64,000 nt of DNA. Source: Streptomyces sp. MRC013. Lineage in GTDB: Bacteria; Actinomycetota; Actinomycetes; Streptomycetales; Streptomycetaceae. The notes under the pieces were generated by a model. It did not search any database, was not told the origin of the DNA, and saw nothing but the letters and a program-made list of their open reading frames with translations. The translations under genes were made by a program, and so were the position numbers. The DNA is taken from positions 4,898,001 through 4,962,000 of the forward strand of contig NZ_CP094264.1 of assembly GCF_023614235.1 (NCBI RefSeq), given 5' to 3'. Numbering within the stretch: position 1 is the stretch's first letter; every line of letters begins with the position of its first letter. Positions 45,868 through 60,559 of this stretch are shown here, piece by piece.

Positions 45868-46577
45868 GGCGTACTTCCCTGTTGTCAGACCTGATTACCC
45901 GTAAGTCAGATTGTATTGGTGATCCGGAGTGCATGTGGGGCCTCTGGCCAAGAATTGCGAGATGTCTGGTCTTCACAGTGACCTCGTGAGGGTCCGCTCG
46001 CTCGATGAGGCTGCGGATCGGCCGGCAGGGGCGCCTCACTTCCACGGGCGTCGGGGCCGTAAGCCCGATCGTAGTGCGGCTGCGGTCATCGATTGCCGTC
46101 GCAGGGGGGAGGGCCTACGTGTGGCCTGGCACCCGCCAAGAAACGGCCCAGGCCTTATCGTCGTAGCGTCGCATTCACGTCAGAGGAGATGCGAAACCGG
46201 TACTGCTCTACAGGAGTGGGCGGCCCTGCCGTAACGGATGACTGTGCCTCACCATTGCTTGAGGGAGGCGAAGCGCCGCTTGACGACGTTGCACCGCTTG
46301 CAGTTCTGCTTGTCAACGGTCGGCGGTGCCTCTCATGGTTGCTGCGCCAGAGTCAGTTGCACCTCCGGTCGGGCCGTTCGGGAACATTCCGCTAGGCGAC
46401 CCCAGTACGGAACCTTCATGCGGCCCGGTTCGAAACCGTTCGGTTGTCTGTCCGGGGACGTTCCGGTGCGAGCTGTGGCGGCAAGGGGTGGGCCGGACCC
46501 TAGTCCACTTTGAACGGTTCGTGACGGTGTGTCACCCCATCATGATCCACAAGTCAGGAGCACCCCGGTGACAAGGT
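45868..46577. other. Intergenic region with the cassette promoter and a transposase relic
   Basis: About 700 bases of lower GC than average. Apart from the relic at 46180-46317, I see only short frames with no coding character. The promoter of the WXG cassette must lie at its left side. The region ends at the stop of the small membrane-protein gene. Confidence 0.5.
46180..46317 (-). pseudogene. Decayed C-terminus of an IS5-type transposase
   Basis: Read on the minus strand from 46317: VDKQNCKRCNVVKRRFASLKQW, stop, GTVIRYGRAAHSCRA. This follows the IS5-family end pattern (RNVVERCFNRLKQWRG and then ATRYDKTAxSYRA). An in-frame TGA replaces the expected Arg codon, and no upstream part remains. 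Separate in sequence from the intact IS at 46903. Confidence 0.6.
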
Positions 46578-48876: not shown

Positions 48877-49372
48877 TCACCCGCCGCCCGCGCGGGGCGT
48901 GCGCGCCTCCCGCTCCAGGGACTCCACCAGCGGCAGCAGCCGGAACGGCACCCGTTCGCGCAGCGCCACCTCGGTCCGGGCCCGTACGACGCCCGGTATG
49001 CGGACGAGCTGCTGGACGACGTCCTCCAGGTGGGCGTTGTCCCGGGCCACCACCCGTGCCAGAAGATCCCCGCCCCCCGTGATCGAGAACGCCTCGACGA
49101 TCTCCGGTACGGCGGCCAGCGCGTCGCCGACCTCGTCCAGGCGCCCCTGGGTCACCTCCACGTGGACGAAGGCGAGCACCGGGTGACCCAGTGCGGCGGG
49201 GGGAGAGGGACGGGCCCGTGCCCGTGATCACGCCCTCCCGCTCCAGGCGGCCGAGCCGCGCCTGGAGCGTGCCGCGCGCGACGCCGAGGATCCGAGCGTA
49301 CTCCCGCACGCTCGTACGAGGCCGTTCGATGAGGAGCCGGAGGATCCGCGTGTCCAGTTCGTCGACCGGCAT
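48877..49372 (-). CDS. Lrp/AsnC-family regulator, split by a one-base frameshift
   Basis: N-terminal HTH MPVDELDTRILRLLIERPR with TSVREYARILGVARGTLQARLGRLEREGVI, then a break in a run of six G (49198-49203). Removing one base joins it to the RAM ligand domain (PAALGHPVLAFVHVEVTQG, FSITGGGDLLARVVARD, VPGVVRARTEVALRE type), giving 164 residues, normal for the family. It would sense an amino acid or similar small molecule as an octamer. ATG 49370-49372. Both halves are well conserved, so the break is probably an error in the sequence. Confidence 0.85.
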
Positions 49373-49715
49373 GGTCCGTCGCCCCTTCGTGGCCGGGCAT
49401 TCCGTGGGTCGACTGTACCAACGGCGCCGTCTCCGCCGTCCGGGTGCGGCCGTCGGCCCGGTGGCGTCCGGATGGCCGAAGGGGCGCGCGGTCCGGTCGG
49501 CCGGGGAGTTGGCCGAAAAACGCCGGAACACCGGTGCGGGAGGCGCCGCACACCCCGTGACCACGGTGTCGCCCCTCCGGCTGACGTCTCGGAGACGGCC
49601 GTGTGTCGTATCAGAACACCGCAGGGGCGACGCGTACCGTTGACGGCCCATGAGCTGCGGCGTATCACTTTCGGCTAGTGCCGTAACTCTCTCCTTCCAG
49701 GGAGGTGTTCCGTCT
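49373..49715. promoter_or_regulatory. Divergent promoter region between asnC and the beta-propeller gene
   Basis: 343 bases without a gene. The left side serves the AsnC-type regulator; the right end holds cluster operator site A (49667-49688) and a GGGAGG ribosome site for the beta-propeller gene. Confidence 0.55.
49667..49688. promoter_or_regulatory. Cluster operator site A
   Basis: ACTTTCGG-CTAGTG-CCGTAACT: inverted repeat with six of eight arm positions paired, 28 bases before the start of the beta-propeller gene. Same spacing and core as sites B, C and D. Confidence 0.65.
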
Positions 49716-51744
49716 GTGGCGACGCGACGCGCGTTCCTCGCCGGCTCGACCGCAGTTATCTCCGCCGCCCTCCTGCCCCCCTCTCCCGAAGCACACGCCG
49801 AGGCCGGGAGCCAGCTCATGCGTGAACCCCAGTTCATCGGAATCCCCCTCGCCGACGTCCTGCTGCTGGGCGGCACGGTCGCCCCGGGGCCCTCCGGGAG
49901 GCAGGCCCTGTGGAACGCCTCCACGGGCAAGCCCGCCCGCCTCAACGCGATGGACCCCATCACCGGGGACCTGCTGGTCAGCGCCCCGCTGACGGGCGGC
50001 GACGGCGCCTGGGCCGTCACCGCCGCCCCCAGCGGCGTGTACGCGGGCACCTACGGGAACGCGCATCTGTACCGCTGGACGCCGGGCTCCGGCGACACCG
50101 TGGAGGACCTGGGCCTGCCGGTGGCCGGGCAGACCTTCGTCTGGTGCCTCGCCACCGACGACGACGGCAGGGTGTGGGGCGGCACGTTCCCCGGCGGCAG
50201 GGTCTTCCGCTTCGACCCGGCCACCCGCGCCTTCACCGACTTCGGACAGGCCGTCCCGGGGCAGACGTACGTGCGCAGCATCGCCTGCCACGGCGACAGG
50301 GTGTACAGCGGCTCCTACGCGGCCGCCCACATCGCCGAGCTGGACCCGGCCACCGGCGTCTTCACCCAGCTGCCCACGCCGCCCGGCCTCGGCACGATCA
50401 CCGGCAAGCCGGTCTACGACCTCAACGCGTACGACGGCCGGCTGTACGCCCGGATCGGCTCCGACGCCCCCAGCCCGCTCTACGTCTTCGACCTCGCCAC
50501 CCGCACCTGGTCGGACCCCATCCCGGAGGTCCACGGCCTGAGCGTCTCCCCCGCCGGACGAGGACGGGGCGGTCTACTTCTTCCAGCGCAGCGAACTGCG
50601 CCGGTACGACCCGGTCACCGGGCAGAACACCGGCACGGGCCTGTTCCTCACCGGCAAGGTGCAGAACGCCCGCTCGTTCGGCTGGGCCGAGCTGGGCCTG
50701 CCCGACTACCCGGGCCGGAGCCTCGTCGGCACCCTGTGGCGCGGCGACATGTTCCGGTACAACCCGACCACGGGCGCGCACGCCGTGCTGGGGACGAAGG
50801 TCCGCAGGGAGCCGATCGACATCCAGGCCCTCGCCGCCGGGGGCCGCCGCACGGTCTACGCGGGCGGGTTCCTCAACGGCGGCCTGTCGTCCGTCGACAC
50901 CGTGACGGGCGCGGCGTCCTTCCACCGCTTCGGCCAGATCGAGGCGATCCTGCGCGACTCCGAGGGCACGGTCTGGATCGGCCAGTACCCCGACGCGAAG
51001 CTCTTCCGCTACCGGCCGGACCGGCCGTGGAACAGCCCCGAGTACTCCCCGGAGGGCCCGCCCGGCACCCCGGCCAACCCCGAGGCCGTCCTCACCCTCA
51101 AGCCCGAGCTGCAGGCACGGGCCCGCAGCCTCGCCGAGGTCGACGGGAAGATCGCGGTCGGCACGGTCCCGGAGGGCAACCGCCTGGGCGGCGGGCTCGC
51201 CGTGTACGACAAGGACACCGGTGCGTGGACGTTCACCCGCAACGTCGTCCAGGACATGTCGATCGTCGCCCTCACCGCGGCCGACGGCGTGGTCTACGGC
51301 GGGGCGTCGATCTTCGGCGGCCTCGGCACCACCCCGCCCACCCGAACGGCGGGCGCCGCCTTCGCCTACCACGTGGAGCGCGCCGAGAAGCTGTGGGAGC
51401 GGGAACTCGTCCCGGGGATAGCGGCGGTGAGCGCCGTCGCGGTCGCCGGCGGCGCGGTCTGGGCGCTGGCCGGGCACTCGCTGTTCGCCCTCGACCCGGA
51501 GACGGGGGGCGTCCTGCGGCGCCTGGAACTCGGTACGCGCAGCAACGACGGGGCGATCGCGGTCGGCCGCCGCAAGCTGTACGTCTCCGTCGACGGCGCG
51601 CTGATCTTCCGGGTCGACCCCTTCTTCCCCCACCGCGACCCGCAGCTCCTGGTCAACTTCCCGCACCGGCGGCTGGCGGCGCACGAGGGGTGGTTGTACT
51701 TCAGCCGCGGTCCCGAGCTGTACAGGGTCGACGTACGCCGCTGA
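49716..51744 (+). CDS. Tat-exported beta-propeller protein, split by a one-base frameshift
   Basis: About 675 residues after correction. The GTG start gives VATRRAFLAGSTAVISAALL, a twin-arginine signal (TRRAFL). The mature part is a series of repeats with patterns such as VYAGTYGNAHLYRWTPGSG, RVWGGTFPGGRVFRFDPATR and VYSGSYAAAHIAELDPATG, as in NHL/PQQ-like propellers. The frame breaks in CCCCC (50548-50552): dropping one C joins LSVSP to PDEDGAVYFFQRSELRRYDP. The rest runs to TGA 51742-51744. It precedes the ABC importer genes and shares their operator motif, so a role in extracellular capture or processing of the same substrate is likely. Confidence 0.82.
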
Positions 51745-51785
51745 ACCCGGTTCCGGTCCCATTGACAGCCGTTTTCTGCCCGGTT

Positions 51786-51807
51786 ACTTTCGGCCCTGAC
51801 CGAAAGT
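51786..51807. promoter_or_regulatory. Cluster operator site B
   Basis: ACTTTCGG-CCCTGA-CCGAAAGT: a perfect inverted repeat with six-base spacer, 43 bases before the start of the binding-protein gene. The best copy of the motif. Confidence 0.8.
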
Positions 51808-51850
51808 GACCGGGCTTGCCTCTCCTTCTCAGGCCTTGCGGAGGCCCACC

Positions 51851-53107
51851 ATGACGACAGGCTCCAAGCGCGCCATCACTCCTCTGGCCCTCCTCGCCGC
51901 GGCGTCCCTGCTGGCCGGCTGCGGCGGCGACGGCGGCTCCGGATCGAACGACGTCACCGTCTGGATGTATCCCGTCATCGCGGACCCGAAGGCCAACTCC
52001 GCCTACTGGAAGCAGGTCGAGAAGGACTTCGAGGCGGCCAACCCCGGCACCCGGGTCACCGTCGAGGAGCAGCCCTGGGAGAACCGCGACGAGAAGCTCG
52101 CCACCGCCCTCGGCAGCGGCAAGGGCCCCGACGTGGTGCTGCTCAACCCCGACCAGGTCCCGCAGTACCTCGGCAACGGAGCCCTGCGCCCCGTGGACAA
52201 GGCGGTCGAGGGCATCGAGGAATCGTTCCTCCCCAACGCTGTGAAGGCCCTCAGCCACGACGGCAGGCTCTACGCGGTGCCGATCTACCACACCGTCACC
52301 ACGACGCTGTACAACAAGCGGCTCCTCGACCGGGCCGGCGTCAAGGAGCCGCCCACCACCTGGGACGAGATCAGGGCCGCCGCACCCAAGCTGAAGCGGG
52401 CCGGCGTCGCCGTCCTCGACTACTCGGCGAGCAACGAGGCGACCCTCAACCTGAACTTCTACCCGCTGCTGTGGCAGGCCGGCGGCCGGGTCTTCTCCGA
52501 GGACGGCCGGAAGGCCGCCTTCAACGGCCCCGAGGGGGTCGCCGCCCTCACCTTCCTCACCGACCTCTACAAGGCGGGCGCCGTCCCCCGGACGGCCCTC
52601 ACCAACACCAACATCTTCGCCGACCACCCCCTGGGCAAGCAGCAGGCCGCCATGGGCTTCTCCAACACCCTCGCCGACGCCGACCTGGCCCGCAGGACCT
52701 GGGGGGCGGAGAACGTCGTCGTCGGCAAGCCCCTCCGCGACGTCGAACAGGTCTCCTTCGGCGTCCCCGGGGGCCTCGGCCTCAACGCCGACTCGCGCAA
52801 CGTCGCGGGCGCCGAGAAGTTCCTCGCCTTCATGGCGCAGCCGGAGCGCATCCGGAGCCTCGGGGAGGCCAGCGGCTTCCTCTCGCCGCGCACCGACGTG
52901 ACGGTGGCCGGCGACGCCCCGTACGCCAAGCAGTTCCAGGAGGCCCTGCCGTTCGCCCACCCCGGCGAGCCCAGCCCCGTCGCCCGCCAGCTGATGTCCC
53001 TGATCGCCCCCGAGATCCAGGCCGCCCTCACCGGGCGCAAGAGCCCGAAGGAGGCCCTGGACGCGGCGGCCGCGCAGGCCGACGACCTGCTGGCACGGCA
53101 GCGTTGA
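51851..53107 (+). CDS. Sugar-type ABC transporter, lipoprotein binding protein
   Basis: 418 residues. Signal peptide with lipobox LLAGC (Cys about 24), then a family-1 solute-binding protein: TVWMYPVIAD, EEQPWENRDEKLATALGSGKGPDVV and LYNKRLLDRAGVKEPPTTWDE. It should bring an oligosaccharide or related solute to the permease pair encoded next. Operator site B lies directly upstream. The ATPase is missing here, as is normal where a shared MsiK serves several importers. Confidence 0.92.
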   Translation: MTTGSKRAITPLALLAAASLLAGCGGDGGSGSNDVTVWMYPVIADPKANSAYWKQVEKDFEAANPGTRVTVEEQPWENRDEKLATALGSGKGPDVVLLNPDQVPQYLGNGALRPVDKAVEGIEESFLPNAVKALSHDGRLYAVPIYHTVTTTLYNKRLLDRAGVKEPPTTWDEIRAAAPKLKRAGVAVLDYSASNEATLNLNFYPLLWQAGGRVFSEDGRKAAFNGPEGVAALTFLTDLYKAGAVPRTALTNTNIFADHPLGKQQAAMGFSNTLADADLARRTWGAENVVVGKPLRDVEQVSFGVPGGLGLNADSRNVAGAEKFLAFMAQPERIRSLGEASGFLSPRTDVTVAGDAPYAKQFQEALPFAHPGEPSPVARQLMSLIAPEIQAALTGRKSPKEALDAAAAQADDLLARQR

Positions 53108-54060
53108 CGGCGGGCACGGCGGGCGAGCGGACCGCCCCGACCCCCGAGCCCGCCGCCGCGTCCGGCCCGCCCCGCCCGGCGGGCCGGGCGCCCCGGCCGG
53201 TCCGCCGCCGCGAGGCGCGCGTCGGGCTGCTGTTCGTCGCGCCGATGCTGCTGCTGTTCGCGGTCTTCCGGTTCGGCCCGACGCTCGGCGCCGCGTTCCT
53301 GTCCCTCACCGACTACCGGCTCAGCGGCGACTGGCGCTTCGTCGGCGCCGCGAACTACGCCCGGCTCCTGAAGGACGACCTGTTCTGGTCCAGCCTCGGC
53401 GTCACCGCCCTGTACACCCTGTTCTTCGTGCCGCTGACGGTCGGCCTCTCACTCGGCACGGCCCTGCTGCTGCACCGCGCGGTCTGGCTGCGCGGCTTCT
53501 TCCGCGGCGTGTTCTTCCTGCCGTACGTCACCAGCATCGTGCTCGCCGCCGTCGTCTGGAAGTGGATCTACGACGTCGAGGACGGCCTGCTCAACGCGGC
53601 GCTCGGCGTCCTCTCCCTGGGGCCCGTCGACTTCCTCGGCGACGAGGCCCTGGTCCTGCCCGCCATCGCGGCCGCGTCCGCCTGGAAGGGCTTCGGCTAC
53701 TCGATGCTGATCCTCCTCGCCGGACTCCAGTCCGTCCCGCGCGAGGTCACCGAGGCCGCCGTCATCGACGGCGCCACCGGCTGGCGACGGCTGCGCTGGG
53801 TCACGCTGCCGCTGCTGCGCCCGGTGCTCTTCTTCGTCCTGGTCGTCGAGGCGATCGGGGCGTTCCAGGTGTTCGACGCGATGTACGTGATGACGGCGGG
53901 CGGCCCCGTGCGCGCCAGCTACTCCCTCGTGTACCTCCTGTACGACACCGGCTTCAAGTTCTTCGACTTCGGCTACGCGAGCGCGCTGGGGCTGGTCCTC
54001 TTCCTGGTGGTCCTGGTGTTCTCCCTGATCCAGCGCCGGCTGATCGGACGGGACGAGTGA
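53104..54060 (+). CDS. ABC transporter permease, MalF type
   Basis: 318 residues. After a Pro/Ala-rich N-terminal arm come six membrane helices and the EAA loop (VPREVTEAAVIDGATGWRRLRWVTLPLLRP). The only plausible start is a TTG at 53104 that overlaps the stop of the binding-protein gene (TTGA), so translation is coupled. It forms the pore with the next gene's product. Confidence 0.9.
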   Translation: MTAGTAGERTAPTPEPAAASGPPRPAGRAPRPVRRREARVGLLFVAPMLLLFAVFRFGPTLGAAFLSLTDYRLSGDWRFVGAANYARLLKDDLFWSSLGVTALYTLFFVPLTVGLSLGTALLLHRAVWLRGFFRGVFFLPYVTSIVLAAVVWKWIYDVEDGLLNAALGVLSLGPVDFLGDEALVLPAIAAASAWKGFGYSMLILLAGLQSVPREVTEAAVIDGATGWRRLRWVTLPLLRPVLFFVLVVEAIGAFQVFDAMYVMTAGGPVRASYSLVYLLYDTGFKFFDFGYASALGLVLFLVVLVFSLIQRRLIGRDE

Positions 54061-54863
54061 TGGCGAGGGTGCGGCTTCCGGTCCTGCTGGTCCTGGTGGC
54101 GCTGGTGACCGTGACGCCCTTCGCGGTGATGGTGCTGGTCGCGTTCGCGCCGCCGGGCGGGAAGACCCTGCCGGGCGCCTTCGACCTGACGCGGGCCACG
54201 TGGGAGAACTTCTCCGCCGTGTTCTCCGGCGCCGACGTCACCCGCTGGGCCGTCAACTCCCTGGTCTACTCGCTCGTGTCGGTCGTGCTGATCCTGCTGT
54301 TCTCGTCCATGGCCGGGTACGCCTTCGCCAAGAAGCGGTTCCCGGGGCGCGAGGTGCTGTTCTGGTCGTTCCTGGCGACGCTGATGGTGCCGTTCCAGGC
54401 GACGCTCGTCCCGTACTTCGTCCTCGTCTCCCGGCTCGGCGGCGTGGACACGTACTGGGGCCTGATCGTGCCGACGCTCGCCAACTCGCAGGCGGTCTTC
54501 CTGATGCGGCAGTTCATCGCGCAGCTCCCCGACGAGCTGTTCGAGGCCGCGAAGATCGACGGGGCGTCCGAGTGGCGGATCTACACCACCGTCGTCGTCC
54601 CGCTCGTCACCCCCGTCCTGGCCACCCTCGGCGTCTTCGTCTTCCTGTGGCACTGGAACGACTTCCTGTGGCCGCTGGTGATCGGCCAGTCCTCCGGGAT
54701 GCGGACCCTCACCGTCGGCCTGGCCACCCTGGAGGGGGAGAACGTCGCCGTCAACCAGGTCATGGCCGGGGCGACCGTCACGGTCCTGCCGTGCCTGCTG
54801 GTCTTCGGCCTCCTCCAGCGCTACCTGACCGACTCCATCGCGACGACCGGCCTCAAGGGCTGA
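54060..54863 (+). CDS. ABC transporter permease, MalG type
   Basis: 267 residues, six membrane helices, EAA motif LPDELFEAAKIDGASEWRIYTTVVVPL, and C-terminal HWNDFLWPLVIG as in MalG-type subunits. ATG at 54060 shares its first base with the preceding stop (TGATG). Last gene of the importer; its end is 4 bases from the end of the convergent LLM gene. Confidence 0.92.
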   Translation: MARVRLPVLLVLVALVTVTPFAVMVLVAFAPPGGKTLPGAFDLTRATWENFSAVFSGADVTRWAVNSLVYSLVSVVLILLFSSMAGYAFAKKRFPGREVLFWSFLATLMVPFQATLVPYFVLVSRLGGVDTYWGLIVPTLANSQAVFLMRQFIAQLPDELFEAAKIDGASEWRIYTTVVVPLVTPVLATLGVFVFLWHWNDFLWPLVIGQSSGMRTLTVGLATLEGENVAVNQVMAGATVTVLPCLLVFGLLQRYLTDSIATTGLKG

Positions 54864-54867
54864 ACCC

Positions 54868-55854
54868 TCACGCGGCCCCCAGCTTCGGCAGGACGTCCGT
54901 GCCGTACGCCTCGATGGCGCGCAGCGCGTCCGCCTGCGGCATCCCCGGCGGCTGGAGGCGCAGGACGACCCCGTCCGCGCCCATCGCCGCGTAGCGGCCG
55001 AGCCGGTCGGCGCACTCCTCGGGGGAGCCGATCACCGAGCGGGCCGCGATGTCGTCCCACTCCTGCGCGTACCGCGCCGCGTCCGCGGAGGTGCGCTTCC
55101 AGTCGCCGTAGGCGTCGTACAGGCCGCGCAGCGGGCCCTCCAGCGCGGCCCGCGCCAGCTGCGTCGTCGGCGCGCAGTAACCCTCGCGGCAGACGACGAC
55201 CTCGGCGCCGAGGCTCGCCGCGCCCCGCGGATACGCCAGGTACTCGGCGATCTTGGCGGGCAGCTCCGCGTCCAGCTCGTTGAAGGACGTCGTCCAGCCG
55301 TCGCACATCCGGGCCGTCCGCTCCAGCGCGGCGGACACCCGCCCGCCGTTCCAGATCCGCGGACGCGGGGCCTGCACCGGACGGGGCGACAGGAACGCGC
55401 CGTCCAGGGAGGTGAAGCGGCCCTCGTGGGTGACCTCCCCCTCCGTCCACAGCCGCGTCACCAGCTCCAGGCACTCCTCGAACCGCGGCACCCGCTCGCG
55501 CGGCTCGGTGCCGTACAGTCGGAACTCCTCCGGCCGGTAGCCGAGGACGAAACCGGCCGTCAGCCGCCCGCCGGACAACACGTCGACGTGGGCGAGGGTC
55601 TCCGCCAGCCACACCGGGTGGTAGACGGGGGCGATCAGCCCGGCCGTGGCCAGCCCGATCCGCTCGGTGTGCGCGGCGAGGTACGCCAGCGTCGTGACGG
55701 CCTCGTGGTAGCCCGGGCGGTGCAGGTGCCGCTCGCCGAGGACCGCCCAGGCGAAGCCCGCCTGCTCCGCCAGCCGCACCTGCTCCACCGCGTCGGCGAG
55801 CCGCGGCCGGTCGGCCCCGTCGGCGTAGAGGTTGACGTAGAGGCCGAGGCGCAT
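54868..55854 (-). CDS. LLM-class flavin-dependent oxidoreductase (luciferase-like)
   Basis: 328 residues, (beta/alpha)8 barrel of bacterial-luciferase type: GLYVNLYADG, AVLGERHLHRPGYHEAVTTLAYLAA, VDVLSGGRLTAGFVLGY and IGSPEECADRLGRYAAMGAD. It uses FMNH2 or F420; the cofactor cannot be fixed from sequence. ATG 55852-55854. Divergent from the DHDPS-like gene; operator site C lies between them, so both should belong to the same regulon. Confidence 0.9.
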   Translation of the reverse strand: MRLGLYVNLYADGADRPRLADAVEQVRLAEQAGFAWAVLGERHLHRPGYHEAVTTLAYLAAHTERIGLATAGLIAPVYHPVWLAETLAHVDVLSGGRLTAGFVLGYRPEEFRLYGTEPRERVPRFEECLELVTRLWTEGEVTHEGRFTSLDGAFLSPRPVQAPRPRIWNGGRVSAALERTARMCDGWTTSFNELDAELPAKIAEYLAYPRGAASLGAEVVVCREGYCAPTTQLARAALEGPLRGLYDAYGDWKRTSADAARYAQEWDDIAARSVIGSPEECADRLGRYAAMGADGVVLRLQPPGMPQADALRAIEAYGTDVLPKLGAA

Positions 55855-55869
55855 GGCACCGGCTCCTTC

Positions 55870-55891
55870 CTTTACGGTCCGGGCCGCAAAG
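55870..55891. promoter_or_regulatory. Cluster operator site C
   Basis: CTTTACGG-TCCGGG-CCGCAAAG: inverted repeat with the same TTWCGG-N6-CCGNAA core, in the 88-bp gap between the LLM oxidoreductase and the DHDPS-like gene, close to both starts. Confidence 0.7.
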
Positions 55892-55942
55892 GCTAGCGTG
55901 AACGCGCACCGCGGCGACAGACCGTCAGACAGGGGGCCGCCC

Positions 55943-56917
55943 ATGTCCGCCACCGGGGAACTCGCAGGACGGCTGCGCGGCACCGTCCTGCCCGCCGTGC
56001 TCACCCCGATGGACGCCGCCGGCGCCGTCGACCGCGCCGCCCTGCACCGGTACGCCGAACGGATGGCCGCCGAACGGATCGGCGGCGTCGCGGTGTGGGC
56101 GCACACCGGCCGCGGGCTGCACCTGGCGGCGGCCGACCGGCGGCGGGTGCTGGCGCTGTGGCGGGAGGCCGTGGACGTGCCGGTCGTCGCCGGAGCGGGC
56201 GTGCCGCACGCGCTGCGCGGCGCCTCCCCGGAGGACGCCGAGGACGCCGCGGTCGCGATGGCGGTGGAGGCCGCGGAGCTGGGCGCCGACGCCGTGATGG
56301 TGTACCCGCTGGCCCGCCACCACGCCCTGCCCGACGGGACGGAGCGGGCCGTACGGCTCCACGAGCGGGCGGCGGAGGAGAGCGGGCTGCCCGTCTTCGG
56401 CTTCCTCCTCCACGCGGAGGCGGGCGGCTACCCCTACCCCCCGGAGCTGGTCCGCCGGCTGCTGGACCTGCCCGCCGCGGCCGGCATCAAGATCGCCACA
56501 CTGGACCGGGCGGTGGACTGCCAGGACGCCGTCCGGGCCGCCGAGGGCACCGGCGCGCTGGTCGTGACCGGCGAGGACCGCATGTTCGGGCCGTCGCTGA
56601 TGTGGGGCGCCGACACGGCGCTGGTCGGCATCGCCGCCGCCCGCGCGGATCTGACCACCGCCGTGCTCGACGCCTGGACCGCCGGGGACGCCGCCGGGTT
56701 CCTGCGGGCCTCGGGGCGGCTGGACCGGTTCGCCGAGGCCACCTTCCACGCGCCGATCGAGGGCTACGTGCAGCGGATGCTGTGGGCCGCCGTCTGGGAG
56801 GGCGCCATCCCCGAGGAGGCCGCCTTCGACCCGTACGGGCCGCCGCTGCCGGACGCCGAGCGGCGCGCCGTCGTCACCTGCCTGGAGCGCCTCGCCGCGG
56901 AGGACGACGCCGGCTGA
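55943..56917 (+). CDS. DHDPS/N-acetylneuraminate-lyase superfamily aldolase
   Basis: 324 residues, TIM barrel that forms a Schiff base with an oxo-acid. The Lys is in AGIKIATLD (Lys about 183), the phosphate/carboxylate loop is WAHTGRG (Thr about 55, in place of the usual GTTGE), and the position of the second-subunit Tyr-containing YNxP motif reads FLLHAEAGG, so the proton-relay Tyr is missing. It is therefore unlikely to be the lysine-pathway DHDPS; a retro-aldol reaction on a sugar-acid-like intermediate is more probable. AGGGGG precedes ATG 55943. Confidence 0.88.
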   Translation: MSATGELAGRLRGTVLPAVLTPMDAAGAVDRAALHRYAERMAAERIGGVAVWAHTGRGLHLAAADRRRVLALWREAVDVPVVAGAGVPHALRGASPEDAEDAAVAMAVEAAELGADAVMVYPLARHHALPDGTERAVRLHERAAEESGLPVFGFLLHAEAGGYPYPPELVRRLLDLPAAAGIKIATLDRAVDCQDAVRAAEGTGALVVTGEDRMFGPSLMWGADTALVGIAAARADLTTAVLDAWTAGDAAGFLRASGRLDRFAEATFHAPIEGYVQRMLWAAVWEGAIPEEAAFDPYGPPLPDAERRAVVTCLERLAAEDDAG

Positions 56918-56924
56918 CGCCGGT

Positions 56925-58061
56925 TCACCCGGCACCCGCCCGCCGGTGGGCGAGGCGCAGGGCGCGGGCGATCCGGTCCACGTGCTCCTGCGTGTACGCC
57001 TCGTTCCACGGCAGCGCCAGCAGCGTCCGGCCGATCAGCCGCTCCGCGCGCGGGCACAGCCCCGCCCGGCCGCCCGGCACCGCCGGATTGGCGTACAACG
57101 GGCGCTCCAGGTAGCCGGGCAGCGCCGGCACGCCCCGCGCCGTGAGCTCCTCCGCCCAGCGGGCGTTGTTGTCGACCAGCAGCGGGAACATCCACCACGC
57201 GTGCCCCGCCGGCTCCCCGGCGAGCGCCACCCCGTCCAGCCCCTCCAGCGCGGCCAGCAGCAGCCCGGCCGCCTCCCGCCGCGCCCGCACGACGCCCCCG
57301 ACCCTGCGGAGCTGGACCCGCGCCACGGCCGCGACCAGCTCCGGCATCCGGTAGTTGAGGCCCATCTCGCGGTGGACGCGCCCCTCCGAGCGGTCCCAGC
57401 CCTTGTCCATGAACAGCCGCATCCGGCGGGCCCGCTCCGGGTCCCCCGCCACGGCGAGGCCGCCGTCGCCCGCGGTGATGTGCTTGAACTGCTGGAGGCT
57501 GAAGCACGCGACGTCGCCGACCGTGCCGAGCAGCCGCCCCGACGCGTCCTCGCCGAGCCACGCCTGCGCGCAGTCCTCCACCAGCGGCAGCCCGTGCCGG
57601 TCGCACACCCCCCGCAGCCGCGCCGCGTCCGCCGCTCCGCCGAACAGGTGAACGGCGATCACCGCCTTCGTCCGCGGCGTGATCGCGGCCTCCACGGCGT
57701 CGGGGTCCAGGTTGCCGTCCTCGGCGCGCACGTCGGCGAAGACCGGCACCGCGCCCTGCGCCATGACCGGCGCGACCGTGCCGAAGTCCGAGATCGGCGT
57801 GGTCACCACCTCGTCGCCCGGCCCCACCCCGCACGCCGCGACCGCCAGGTGCAGCGCCGCCGTGCCGGACGAGCACGCCACGGCGTGCGGACGCCCGTAC
57901 AGCGCGGCCATCTCCGCCTCCAGCGACCGCGCCTCGGAGCCGAACGCGCTGCACAGCACCGCCGAGTCGAGGACCCGCAGCACCGCGGCCCGCTCCTCCT
58001 CGCCGATCGTCCTGCCGCGCGGATCGAGGACCGTGGGCAGGGGGATTTCCCGTTCGGGCAT
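56925..58061 (-). CDS. DegT/DnrJ/EryC1/StrS-family PLP aminotransferase
   Basis: 378 residues. SSGTAALHLA binds the PLP phosphate, VEDCAQAWLG holds the cofactor Asp, and SLQQFKHITAGDGG carries the aldimine Lys193. GLNYRMPELVAAV and the late LPWNEAYTQEHVDRI are also typical. Family members aminate keto-sugars or cyclitols. Its location next to an aldolase and a sugar-type importer suggests a sugar-like substrate. ATG 58059-58061; operator site D is in its promoter. Confidence 0.92.
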   Translation of the reverse strand: MPEREIPLPTVLDPRGRTIGEEERAAVLRVLDSAVLCSAFGSEARSLEAEMAALYGRPHAVACSSGTAALHLAVAACGVGPGDEVVTTPISDFGTVAPVMAQGAVPVFADVRAEDGNLDPDAVEAAITPRTKAVIAVHLFGGAADAARLRGVCDRHGLPLVEDCAQAWLGEDASGRLLGTVGDVACFSLQQFKHITAGDGGLAVAGDPERARRMRLFMDKGWDRSEGRVHREMGLNYRMPELVAAVARVQLRRVGGVVRARREAAGLLLAALEGLDGVALAGEPAGHAWWMFPLLVDNNARWAEELTARGVPALPGYLERPLYANPAVPGGRAGLCPRAERLIGRTLLALPWNEAYTQEHVDRIARALRLAHRRAGAG

Positions 58062-58089
58062 CGGGTTACTATCCTTCCGCCAGACACGC

Positions 58090-58111
58090 GGTTACGGCCT
58101 GGGCCGAAACT
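58090..58111. promoter_or_regulatory. Cluster operator site D
   Basis: GGTTACGG-CCTGGG-CCGAAACT in the 128-bp gap between the aminotransferase and the regulator gene. Same core and spacer as sites A to C. Confidence 0.7.
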
Positions 58112-58189
58112 AAGACCCCCGCAGGCGGGCGTCAACCGGCCCCACGGAAGCCCCCGCGGCACTTCGCCGAGACGAACGGAGACCGGCCG

Positions 58190-59416
58190 ATGACGCTCAC
58201 GGTCGGCGTGATAGGCCCCGAGGACCTGGTGGGGAAGGCGGTCGCGGTCGGGGACGGGACCGGAGCCGCCCGGCTGCGGGCCTTCCCCTACCGGCACGAG
58301 GACGAGACGCCCGACGTGGTCCGCGACGCGGGCCTCCGCGTCGACGCCCTGCTGTTCACCGGCGTCGTCCCGCACACCCTCGCCGCCGGCGCGGGCCTGC
58401 TCGACCGCCCCGCCATGTACGTCCCGTACAGCGGCGCCACCCTGCTGCGGGCCCTCGTCGAGCTGCTCCGCCTCGGCCACGACGTGTCCCGCCTCTCCAT
58501 CGACACCCTCGGCCGCGCCGAGGTGACGGAGACCCTCCTCGAGGCCAAGCTGCCCACCGAACACGTCCGCGTCCTGCCCCACCGGCCCGGCCTCACCTCC
58601 CAGGACCTGGTCGACTTCCACCTCGCCGCGCACGACCGCCACGGCACCACCACCGCCCTCACCTGCCTGGGCTCGGCCCACCACCGGCTGGAGCACCGCC
58701 TGCCCGCCGTGCGGCTCGCCCCCTCCCGCCACTCCATACGCGCGACCCTGCGCGCACTGGTCCTCGCCACCGCCGGCGCGCACAGCGACGACGCCCGGAT
58801 CGCCCTCGGCATCGTCGACCTGCCGGCCGCCGACGAGGACCTCGCCGCGGACCTCGCCGTCCTGGGCGGCAGCCTCGCCGGGCTGCCGGACGGCAGCCGC
58901 CTCGCGGTGACCACGCGCGGCGCGCTGGAGGAGGCCACCGACGGGTTCACCCGCCTGCCGTTCCTCGACGGCCTGGCCGCCCGGCACGGCTCCGCCCGCG
59001 TCGGCTTCGGCCTCGGCCGCACCGCCGCCGAGGCGGAGGCGCTGGCCCGGCGGGCGGTGAACCGGGCCCGCTCCGTCGGGCCGGTCGCCGGCGTCGTCTG
59101 CATGAAGGACGACGTCGACATCGTCATCGCCGACGGTGCGGACGGCGCCCGGCCCGACGGGGCGGAGGGCACCGGGCTGCTCGCCCGGCGGGCCGGCCTC
59201 AACCCGGGGACGCTGGAGCGGCTGCGGGAGCTGGTGGCCGCCGAGGAGGAGCCCGGCATCACCGCGCACCGCGTCGCCGAACACCTCGACGTCCAGCAGC
59301 GCACCGCCCGGCGCATCCTCAAGCGCCTGGAGCGCGCCGGCGTCGCCGTCCCCGTCGGCAGCCGGCAGGAAGGGCGCACCGGCCGGCCGCCCATCGTCTA
59401 CCGAGTACGCCTCTAG
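58190..59416 (+). CDS. Cluster-linked transcriptional regulator with C-terminal winged helix
   Basis: 408 residues of unassigned family. The N-terminal about 300 residues form an alpha/beta part (VGVIGPEDLVGKAVAVGDG, FTGVVPHTLAAGAGLL, VVCMKDDVDIVIADGAD), perhaps two related sensor lobes. The last 60 residues are a winged helix-turn-helix: GITAHRVAEHLDVQQRTARRILKRLERAGVAV with a basic wing (RQEGRTGRPPIVYRVRL). Operator site D lies before it and an enolase-superfamily gene follows after 45 bases. It is the only regulator inside the cluster and so the best candidate to bind sites A to D. Confidence 0.75.
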   Translation: MTLTVGVIGPEDLVGKAVAVGDGTGAARLRAFPYRHEDETPDVVRDAGLRVDALLFTGVVPHTLAAGAGLLDRPAMYVPYSGATLLRALVELLRLGHDVSRLSIDTLGRAEVTETLLEAKLPTEHVRVLPHRPGLTSQDLVDFHLAAHDRHGTTTALTCLGSAHHRLEHRLPAVRLAPSRHSIRATLRALVLATAGAHSDDARIALGIVDLPAADEDLAADLAVLGGSLAGLPDGSRLAVTTRGALEEATDGFTRLPFLDGLAARHGSARVGFGLGRTAAEAEALARRAVNRARSVGPVAGVVCMKDDVDIVIADGADGARPDGAEGTGLLARRAGLNPGTLERLRELVAAEEEPGITAHRVAEHLDVQQRTARRILKRLERAGVAVPVGSRQEGRTGRPPIVYRVRL

Positions 59417-59461: not shown

Positions 59462-60559
59462 GTGAAGATCGAATCGATCCGCAGCCACGTCGTCCGGGCC
59501 CCCTACCGACGCCCCTTCGCCATCAGCAGCGGGACCAGCCCCGACCTCGTCAGCCTCGTCGTCGAGGTGCGCACCGGCGACGGCGCCACCGGCTACGGCG
59601 AGGCGTCGCCCATGACCGCCTACACGGGGGAGACCCTCGACGGGCTGCGCGCCGCGCTCGCCGGCCACGCCGCCCCCGCCCTGGTCGGCCGCGACCCGCG
59701 CGACCTCGCCGGCGCGCACGCCGCGATGGACGCGGCGATCCGCGGTCAGCACCTGGCCAAGGCCGCCCTCGACCTGGCCCTGCACGACCTCGCCGGACGC
59801 GCCGCGGGCTGGCCCGTCCACCTGCTCCTCGGCGGGCGGCTGCGCACGCCGGTGCCCACCGCCTGGGTGGTCGGCCTCGGTACGCCGCGGCAGATGACCG
59901 AGGAGGCCGCCGAGTACGCCGCCCGGGGCTTCACCCACGTCAAGGTCAAGGGCGGCGAGGACCCGGACCGCGACGTCGCGCTGGTCCACGCCGTGCGCGC
60001 CGCCGTTCCGGACGGCGTCGAGCTCTCCCTCGACGCCAACGAGGGCTACGACCCGTCCACCGCCGCCCGCACCGTGGCGCGGCTCGGCGAGGAGGGCCTC
60101 GACCTCGTCGAGCAGCCGCTGCCCCGCTGGGACCTCGCCGGGATGGCCGCGCTGCGCGGCCGCGGCGGGCCGCGGGTGATGGCGGACGAGTCGCTGCAGT
60201 CGCTGCACGACGCCATGGAGATCGTCCGGCGCGGTGCCGCCGACGTGCTCAACATCAAGGTCCTCAAGGTGGGCGGGCTGCACCGCGCCCGCCAGATCGC
60301 CGCGCTCGCGGAAGCCGCCGGCCTCGCCGTGAAGATCGGCTCCATGCCGGAGCTGGGCGTCGCCACCCTCGCCGCCGCCCACCTCGCGGCCGCACTGCCC
60401 CACGCCACCGTCCCCGCCGACCTCGTCGGACCCCTGCTCGTCGCCGACGAGCCGCTCGCCCCCGGGGCGTTCACCGGGGCCGCGGACACCGGCAGGGTCG
60501 AGCTGCCCGGCACCCCGGGTCTCGGCCACGGGCTGTCCGAGCTGCCCGGCCGACCGTGA
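59462..60559 (+). CDS. Enolase-superfamily enzyme, muconate-lactonising subgroup
   Basis: 365 residues. Catalytic residues are all in place: Lys161-x-Lys163 in THVKVKGG, metal ligands Asp191 (SLDANEGY), Glu217 (LVEQPLPRWD) and Asp242 (VMADESLQ), and Lys266 (NIKVLKVGG). This set defines the MLE subgroup, which contains dipeptide epimerases, o-succinylbenzoate synthases and N-succinylamino-acid racemases; the sequence alone does not choose between them. GTG start with GGAG upstream. Co-transcribed with the regulator (45-base gap). Confidence 0.9.
   Translation: MKIESIRSHVVRAPYRRPFAISSGTSPDLVSLVVEVRTGDGATGYGEASPMTAYTGETLDGLRAALAGHAAPALVGRDPRDLAGAHAAMDAAIRGQHLAKAALDLALHDLAGRAAGWPVHLLLGGRLRTPVPTAWVVGLGTPRQMTEEAAEYAARGFTHVKVKGGEDPDRDVALVHAVRAAVPDGVELSLDANEGYDPSTAARTVARLGEEGLDLVEQPLPRWDLAGMAALRGRGGPRVMADESLQSLHDAMEIVRRGAADVLNIKVLKVGGLHRARQIAALAEAAGLAVKIGSMPELGVATLAAAHLAAALPHATVPADLVGPLLVADEPLAPGAFTGAADTGRVELPGTPGLGHGLSELPGRP

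Follow-up and report, generated by a model that had tools for sequence, protein, structure and literature searches.

Gene organization of the cluster

The window, that is, the whole 64,000-nucleotide stretch of the Streptomyces sp. MRC013 genome analysed here, contains a cluster of nine genes that encode a secreted protein, an ABC importer, several enzymes and a DNA-binding regulator. The nine genes likely form six transcription units arranged around four copies of a palindrome, which we interpret as operators. This sequence-based picture fits the regulon of about nine genes proposed in the initial annotation. The genes, the putative operators and the promoter-like elements are as follows.

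Genes:
49716..51744, + strand, secreted double beta-propeller gene, with a frameshift near 50550
51851..53107, + strand, solute-binding lipoprotein-like protein (SBP_bac_1)
53104..54060, + strand, ABC permease (BPD_transp_1)
54060..54863, + strand, ABC permease (BPD_transp_1)
54868..55854, - strand, LLM-class (luciferase-like) oxidoreductase
55943..56917, + strand, DHDPS/NAL-family lyase
56925..58061, - strand, DegT/DnrJ/EryC1-family aminotransferase
58190..59416, + strand, 408-residue regulator, with PrpR-N-like (about 1-199), cyclase-like (about 200-316) and winged-helix (about 328-406) regions
59462..60559, + strand, MR/MLE (enolase superfamily) enzyme, 45 bases downstream of the regulator gene

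Putative operators:
49669..49686, no strand, operator 1, TTTCGGCTAGTGCCGTAA, propeller promoter; the weakest match
51788..51805, no strand, operator 2, TTTCGGCCCTGACCGAAA, ABC importer promoter
55872..55889, no strand, operator 3, TTACGGTCCGGGCCGCAA, between the divergent LLM oxidoreductase and DHDPS-family lyase genes
58092..58109, no strand, operator 4, TTACGGCCTGGGCCGAAA, between the divergent aminotransferase and regulator genes

Promoter-like elements:
49640..49668, + strand, TTGACG-17-TATCAC, -10 abutting operator 1
51762..51790, + strand, TTGACA-17-TACTTT, -10 overlapping operator 2
58107..58135, - strand, TTGACG-17-TAGTTT, -10 overlapping operator 4

The MR/MLE gene is probably co-transcribed with the regulator gene. 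The propeller gene is broken in the MRC013 genome; relatives carry intact forms of 641-675 residues, and the predicted structure is a confident double propeller (pLDDT 92.6). The record of S. sudanensis also holds a short propeller form of 361 residues, so the frameshift may be real and not a sequencing error. The adjoining Lrp/AsnC-family gene (48877-49373), which is whole in locus L007, is also broken, near 49180, and its open piece comprises the ligand domain only.

The binding protein of the importer is similar to sugar-binding proteins, and the lyase resembles DHDPS and N-acetylneuraminate lyase at low similarity. The aminotransferase resembles those acting on nucleotide sugars and aminocyclitols, while the MR/MLE enzyme resembles cycloisomerases and dipeptide epimerases. 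Taken by their family resemblances, the encoded proteins look like a catabolic pathway for a compound of the amino-sugar, cyclitol or sugar-acid type.

The palindrome in the window and in the MRC013 genome

Exact matches to TTWCGGNNNNNNCCGNAA occur at only four places in the window (49669-49686, 51788-51805, 55872-55889 and 58092-58109). The initial annotation had described the motif TTWCGG-N6-CCGNAA at four promoters; all four sites are recovered by the exact search, and its coordinates need correction, each being two bases low. Its description of the motif is otherwise borne out: the sites all lie in promoter gaps, the motif is found nowhere else in the window, and the arms at 51788 form a perfect inverted repeat. 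The spacer is six bases at all four sites, and spacers of 0-5 and 7-20 bases give no match in the window.

Markov models of order 1 to order 3, built on the window sequence, predict 0.006-0.014 exact chance matches for a window and 0.5-1.1 for 5.33 Mb, both strands being counted. The genome as a whole, a single contig of 5,331,980 bases, contains five exact places, of which four are the cluster sites, packed into 8.4 kb, and the fifth is C1:2924416. The control pattern, the motif read backwards, has no exact match in the whole genome.

The fifth place was considered as a further regulon member and rejected. It lies 3' of csoR, in the gap of convergent genes, and is conserved in none of the 20 relatives, in all of which the csoR coding sequence aligns; we therefore take it as a chance occurrence. 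Copies at many unrelated genes, which the initial annotation had named as evidence against a regulon, thus amount in the MRC013 genome to one extra, unconserved exact place.

When one mismatch is allowed, the whole genome gives 56 strand-matches versus 39 for the reversed-pattern control, and with up to two mismatches the window gives 14 matches against a shuffle mean of 15.0. Since these mismatch-tolerant counts are close to the background, only the exact sites stand out, and we claim no additional regulon members in the MRC013 genome on the basis of sites with one or two mismatches.

When scored with a matrix derived from 77 sites in 24 loci, all outside the MRC013 clade, the four sites rank first to fourth in the window with 28.1, 27.2, 23.4 and 17.3 bits, followed by 10.4 bits at 46141. 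The best score across 20 simulated windows is 16.4 bits. Of the four, the propeller site at 49669 scores lowest, no better than the csoR-side site (17.7 bits), and we keep it as an operator because it is conserved across loci. Its 18 bases and its -10 element are identical in L006, L007, L009, L017 and the more distant L024.

Conservation of the sites across loci

Scanning genome contigs with the regulator protein yields 18 loci, and in each of these one to five sites match TTWCGG-N6-CCGWAA with no more than one mismatch; because these loci were fetched through the regulator, its presence in them proves nothing by itself. Gene order varies among the loci, and the sites stay at the promoters of the same gene families, conserved to the base with differing flanks. 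The palindrome is also present in another family, where the regulator is 46-50% identical.

In total, 92 sites were collected in 28 loci. Two of them lie inside called genes, where comparison with orthologues indicates that the simple gene caller placed the start too far upstream; a further site is more than 500 bases from any gene start. The matrix of the 92 sites reads TTWCGGYCYRGRCCGWAA, with some information in the spacer too. Later counts leave out L006, which is near-identical to the window, as well as L037 and L038, which are copies of L019 and L012.

The relatives add enzymes to the set associated with the sites. In 13 of 19 loci the aminotransferase gene is followed by two amidohydrolase-type genes, one with the Pfam domain Amidohydro_2; both are missing in the MRC013 clade. 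The MR/MLE gene has an operator of its own in 13 of 28 loci, and in relatives of family f19 an SDR-like protein and a second DHDPS-like protein are encoded behind a site.

Position of the putative operators relative to the promoters

Repressors usually sit on or right after the -10 element. The putative operators at the importer and aminotransferase promoters overlap the -10 element and that at the propeller promoter abuts it, a geometry which fits a repressor; a protein bound at these three promoters would most likely block RNA polymerase. Across the 28 loci, the distance from the start of a TTGAC to the operator is 26-27 bases in 15 of 24 aminotransferase pairs and in 8 of 11 importer pairs, and 29-30 bases in 4 of 21 propeller pairs. 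By our -35/-10 rule, no promoter elements are found for the LLM, lyase and regulator genes of the window, and none of the 17 LLM pairs or 23 regulator pairs in the loci has TTGAC before the operator.

We consider it unlikely that the regulator acts at these sites as an activator, or as activator and repressor together. The LLM/lyase site is without clear -35/-10 elements by our rule, so that its geometry is compatible with either sign; however, at the three other promoters the operator is on or right after the -10 element with a normal 17-base spacer, and this arrangement is kept in other species.

Co-occurrence of the palindrome and the regulator

Because the 18 loci had been fetched through the regulator, the pattern scans were run without using it, with the strict pattern TTWCGGNCNDGNCCGWAA. 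Within the genus, 27 of 199 genomes contain a strict match, including 4/4 genomes with the regulator versus 23/195 without it, a modest association as far as the mere presence of a strict site is concerned (Fisher p 3e-4). Two strict places within 20 kb of each other are found in 4/4 genus genomes with the regulator and in 0/195 without it. The 23 regulator-less genomes together hold 28 strict places, none of them less than 20 kb from another, and 13 loci fetched from 11 of these 23 genomes show no cluster gene family nearby.

Within the class, a close regulator is present in 18 of 394 genomes (E up to 1e-100; the next best match is 7e-64). Strict matches occur in 15 of these 18 genomes versus 11 of the 376 others, rows which are not independent, as 13 of the 18 close-regulator genomes belong to one genus. 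Of the three close-regulator genomes that lack a strict match, G237 and G405 have near-sites. In G548, a close regulator (49% identity) and the lyase are present and no site was found. Three places from class genomes without a close regulator were also inspected; two are without cluster families, and the third (L090) has a propeller homologue, 28% identical, at a distance of about 1.2 kb. The lyase, detected with cut-offs of our own choice (1e-50 and 1e-40), shows exactly the same distribution as the close regulator, being present in 4 of the 199 genus genomes and 18 of the 394 class genomes.

Sites remote from the regulator gene

In genome G047 the cluster is split on one contig into two halves 1.3 Mb apart. 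The half with the regulator, aminotransferase and MR/MLE genes contains two one-mismatch sites, and the half with the propeller, importer, LLM and lyase genes contains five exact sites. Genomes of family f19 contain nine strict places that are either separated from the regulator by more than 15 kb or situated on a different contig; all nine have a propeller homologue beside them, 8/9 within 30 bases. Two of these distant sites belong to one-contig genomes, at 2.0 and 2.6 Mb from the regulator gene. As both the split halves and the unlinked propeller paralogues keep the sites, the palindrome appears to be read by a diffusible, trans-acting binder.

In genomes of the genus g37 (L081-L084 and L087), a propeller paralogue bearing the operator is followed by an ABC exporter pair and faces a guaA-like gene; Pfam was used to check this neighbourhood in L081.

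The 408-residue regulator

The regulator is 98% identical to a protein of Streptomyces somaliensis DSM 40738. The model of the regulator matches the PrpR-N fold by structure, while Pfam does not recognize PrpR-N in the MRC013 protein. Residues from about 185 to 318 match 2qv6 and adenylyl cyclase by structure. With E up to 1, Pfam matches HTH-type families only, at residues 342-405. The 21 families matched by the MRC013 regulator at this threshold include neither a sigma-54 activation domain nor a FIS-type HTH, and neither the PucR C-terminal HTH nor GGDEF-like domains; for the other members of the regulator family, the Pfam assignments cover 25 of 45 families. The pTM of the model is 0.50, so the packing of the domains is uncertain.

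The domain combination has no name in Pfam or NCBIfam. Title searches of the open literature found no paper on this regulator, most subscription papers lying outside the searched set, and of the operator strings only a 9-letter string was found there among the matches listed.

In 14 of the 16 loci with regulators of about 45-50% identity (L043-L058), a site with no more than one mismatch lies shortly upstream of the regulator gene; the upstream site of L055 has two mismatches, and L056 has none. The recognition-helix region of these regulators reads VQQRTARRIL or VQLRTARRIL. Distant homologues (best E 1e-64 to 1e-42) are present in 43 class genomes. In the 12 loci examined (L059-L070, 35-36% identity) they have neither a site with at most one mismatch nor cluster genes, their recognition-helix region reads VTSRTARRLL or VTPRTARRLL, and no palindrome is shared upstream of more than 4 of the 12. 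Homologues of this kind occur in many genomes of one family, f17, without the operator or the cluster and make up another branch of the regulator family, distinct from the first.

Two irregular cases were seen within the genus Streptomyces. In Streptomyces sp. I6 (L022 10001-11175) the regulator is called as two pieces of 210 and 181 residues, although every one of the five sites at this locus is intact. Streptomyces sp. ODS25 (L011 2980-4197) has a second regulator paralogue with 47% identity near the cluster.

The sites could also be real operators of one regulon that are bound by another protein, such as the Lrp/AsnC protein encoded beside the propeller gene, which we regard as improbable. 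In the window, L007, L009 and L017, the propeller promoter does have an AsnC-family gene next to it, and a GntR gene and an ArsR gene are found near the cluster in L011 and L013. However, the AsnC family occurs in only 4 of 19 loci and is broken in MRC013, and its neighbours vary among loci while the sites persist. Moreover, the regulator and the site track each other in scans that started from neither gene, and the homologues at 35-36% identity, whose recognition helix is different, are without the site in the 12 loci examined. The 408-residue protein therefore remains the favoured binder.

Proposed regulation and its significance

Our analysis makes it likely that the palindrome is the operator of an uptake and breakdown regulon, with the 408-residue protein as its most likely binder and repressor. 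The same palindrome stands before several transcription units and is rare elsewhere, as in a single-operator one-component regulon; in addition, a DNA-binding protein is encoded in the regulon and is co-inherited with the sites. That the palindromes are RNA hairpins, chance occurrences or repeat remnants is very improbable: although any G+C-rich inverted repeat can fold, these sites lie in divergent promoters, overlap untranscribed -10 elements and are conserved base for base amid differing flanks, with about 0.01 expected per window.

In the proposed mechanism, the consensus TTACGGTCYRGACCGTAA would serve as the operator, and the regulon would import and degrade a compound that is probably carbohydrate-derived. 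The 408-residue protein would bind the palindrome as a dimer through its C-terminal winged helix and, at the importer, aminotransferase and propeller promoters, would exclude RNA polymerase. An organic-acid-like metabolite of the pathway may bind the PrpR-N-like domain and release the protein from DNA. The cyclase-like middle domain may transmit this signal or add a second one.

A broader reading, for which we see the case as evenly balanced, is that the 408-residue protein founds an undescribed repressor family, built from PrpR-N-like and dead-cyclase-like modules and a winged helix, which rules an undescribed catabolic pathway across several actinobacterial families. This pathway would comprise the secreted double propeller, the carbohydrate-type importer, DegT aminotransferases, amidohydrolase-2 proteins, the DHDPS-like lyase and the LLM oxidoreductase.

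The results provide a testable operator, a candidate binder and a list of genes for a pathway whose proteins received only family-level names in our searches. More members can be sought with the operator, which already links unlinked propeller genes. Furthermore, screening inducers with a single reporter could reveal the substrate, and this arrangement of sensors would be a new architecture among the bacterial one-component regulators.

Comparison with known systems

PrpR and other regulators of the NtrC type with a PrpR-N domain (2pju, 2q5c) share 7-12% identity with the 408-residue regulator. In contrast to them, the regulator has no sigma-54 AAA+ domain and carries in its place a cyclase-like domain, with a winged helix at the C terminus.

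The closest arrangement is that of the PucR/CdaR-type regulators including MabR, in which, according to the accessible part of the source, a sensor is followed by a degenerate GGDEF-like domain and a C-terminal HTH (PMC11617747), the same domain order as in the 408-residue regulator. On that partial description, the regulator differs from MabR in that its sensor is PrpR-N-like and not a globin, and in that its DNA-binding part is a winged helix.

In the alignment with GTP cyclohydrolase III (MJ0145, 2qv6), the position of the catalytic hairpin, as we read it, is occupied by TTRG in the regulator, so catalysis by the cyclase-like domain would be unlikely.

By Pfam the regulator belongs to neither the LacI nor the GntR family. 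Small repressor regulons are a common kind, and the local sugar-catabolic regulons of LacI/GntR type are likewise small, with a palindromic operator at the importer and enzyme promoters and the regulator gene inside the regulon.
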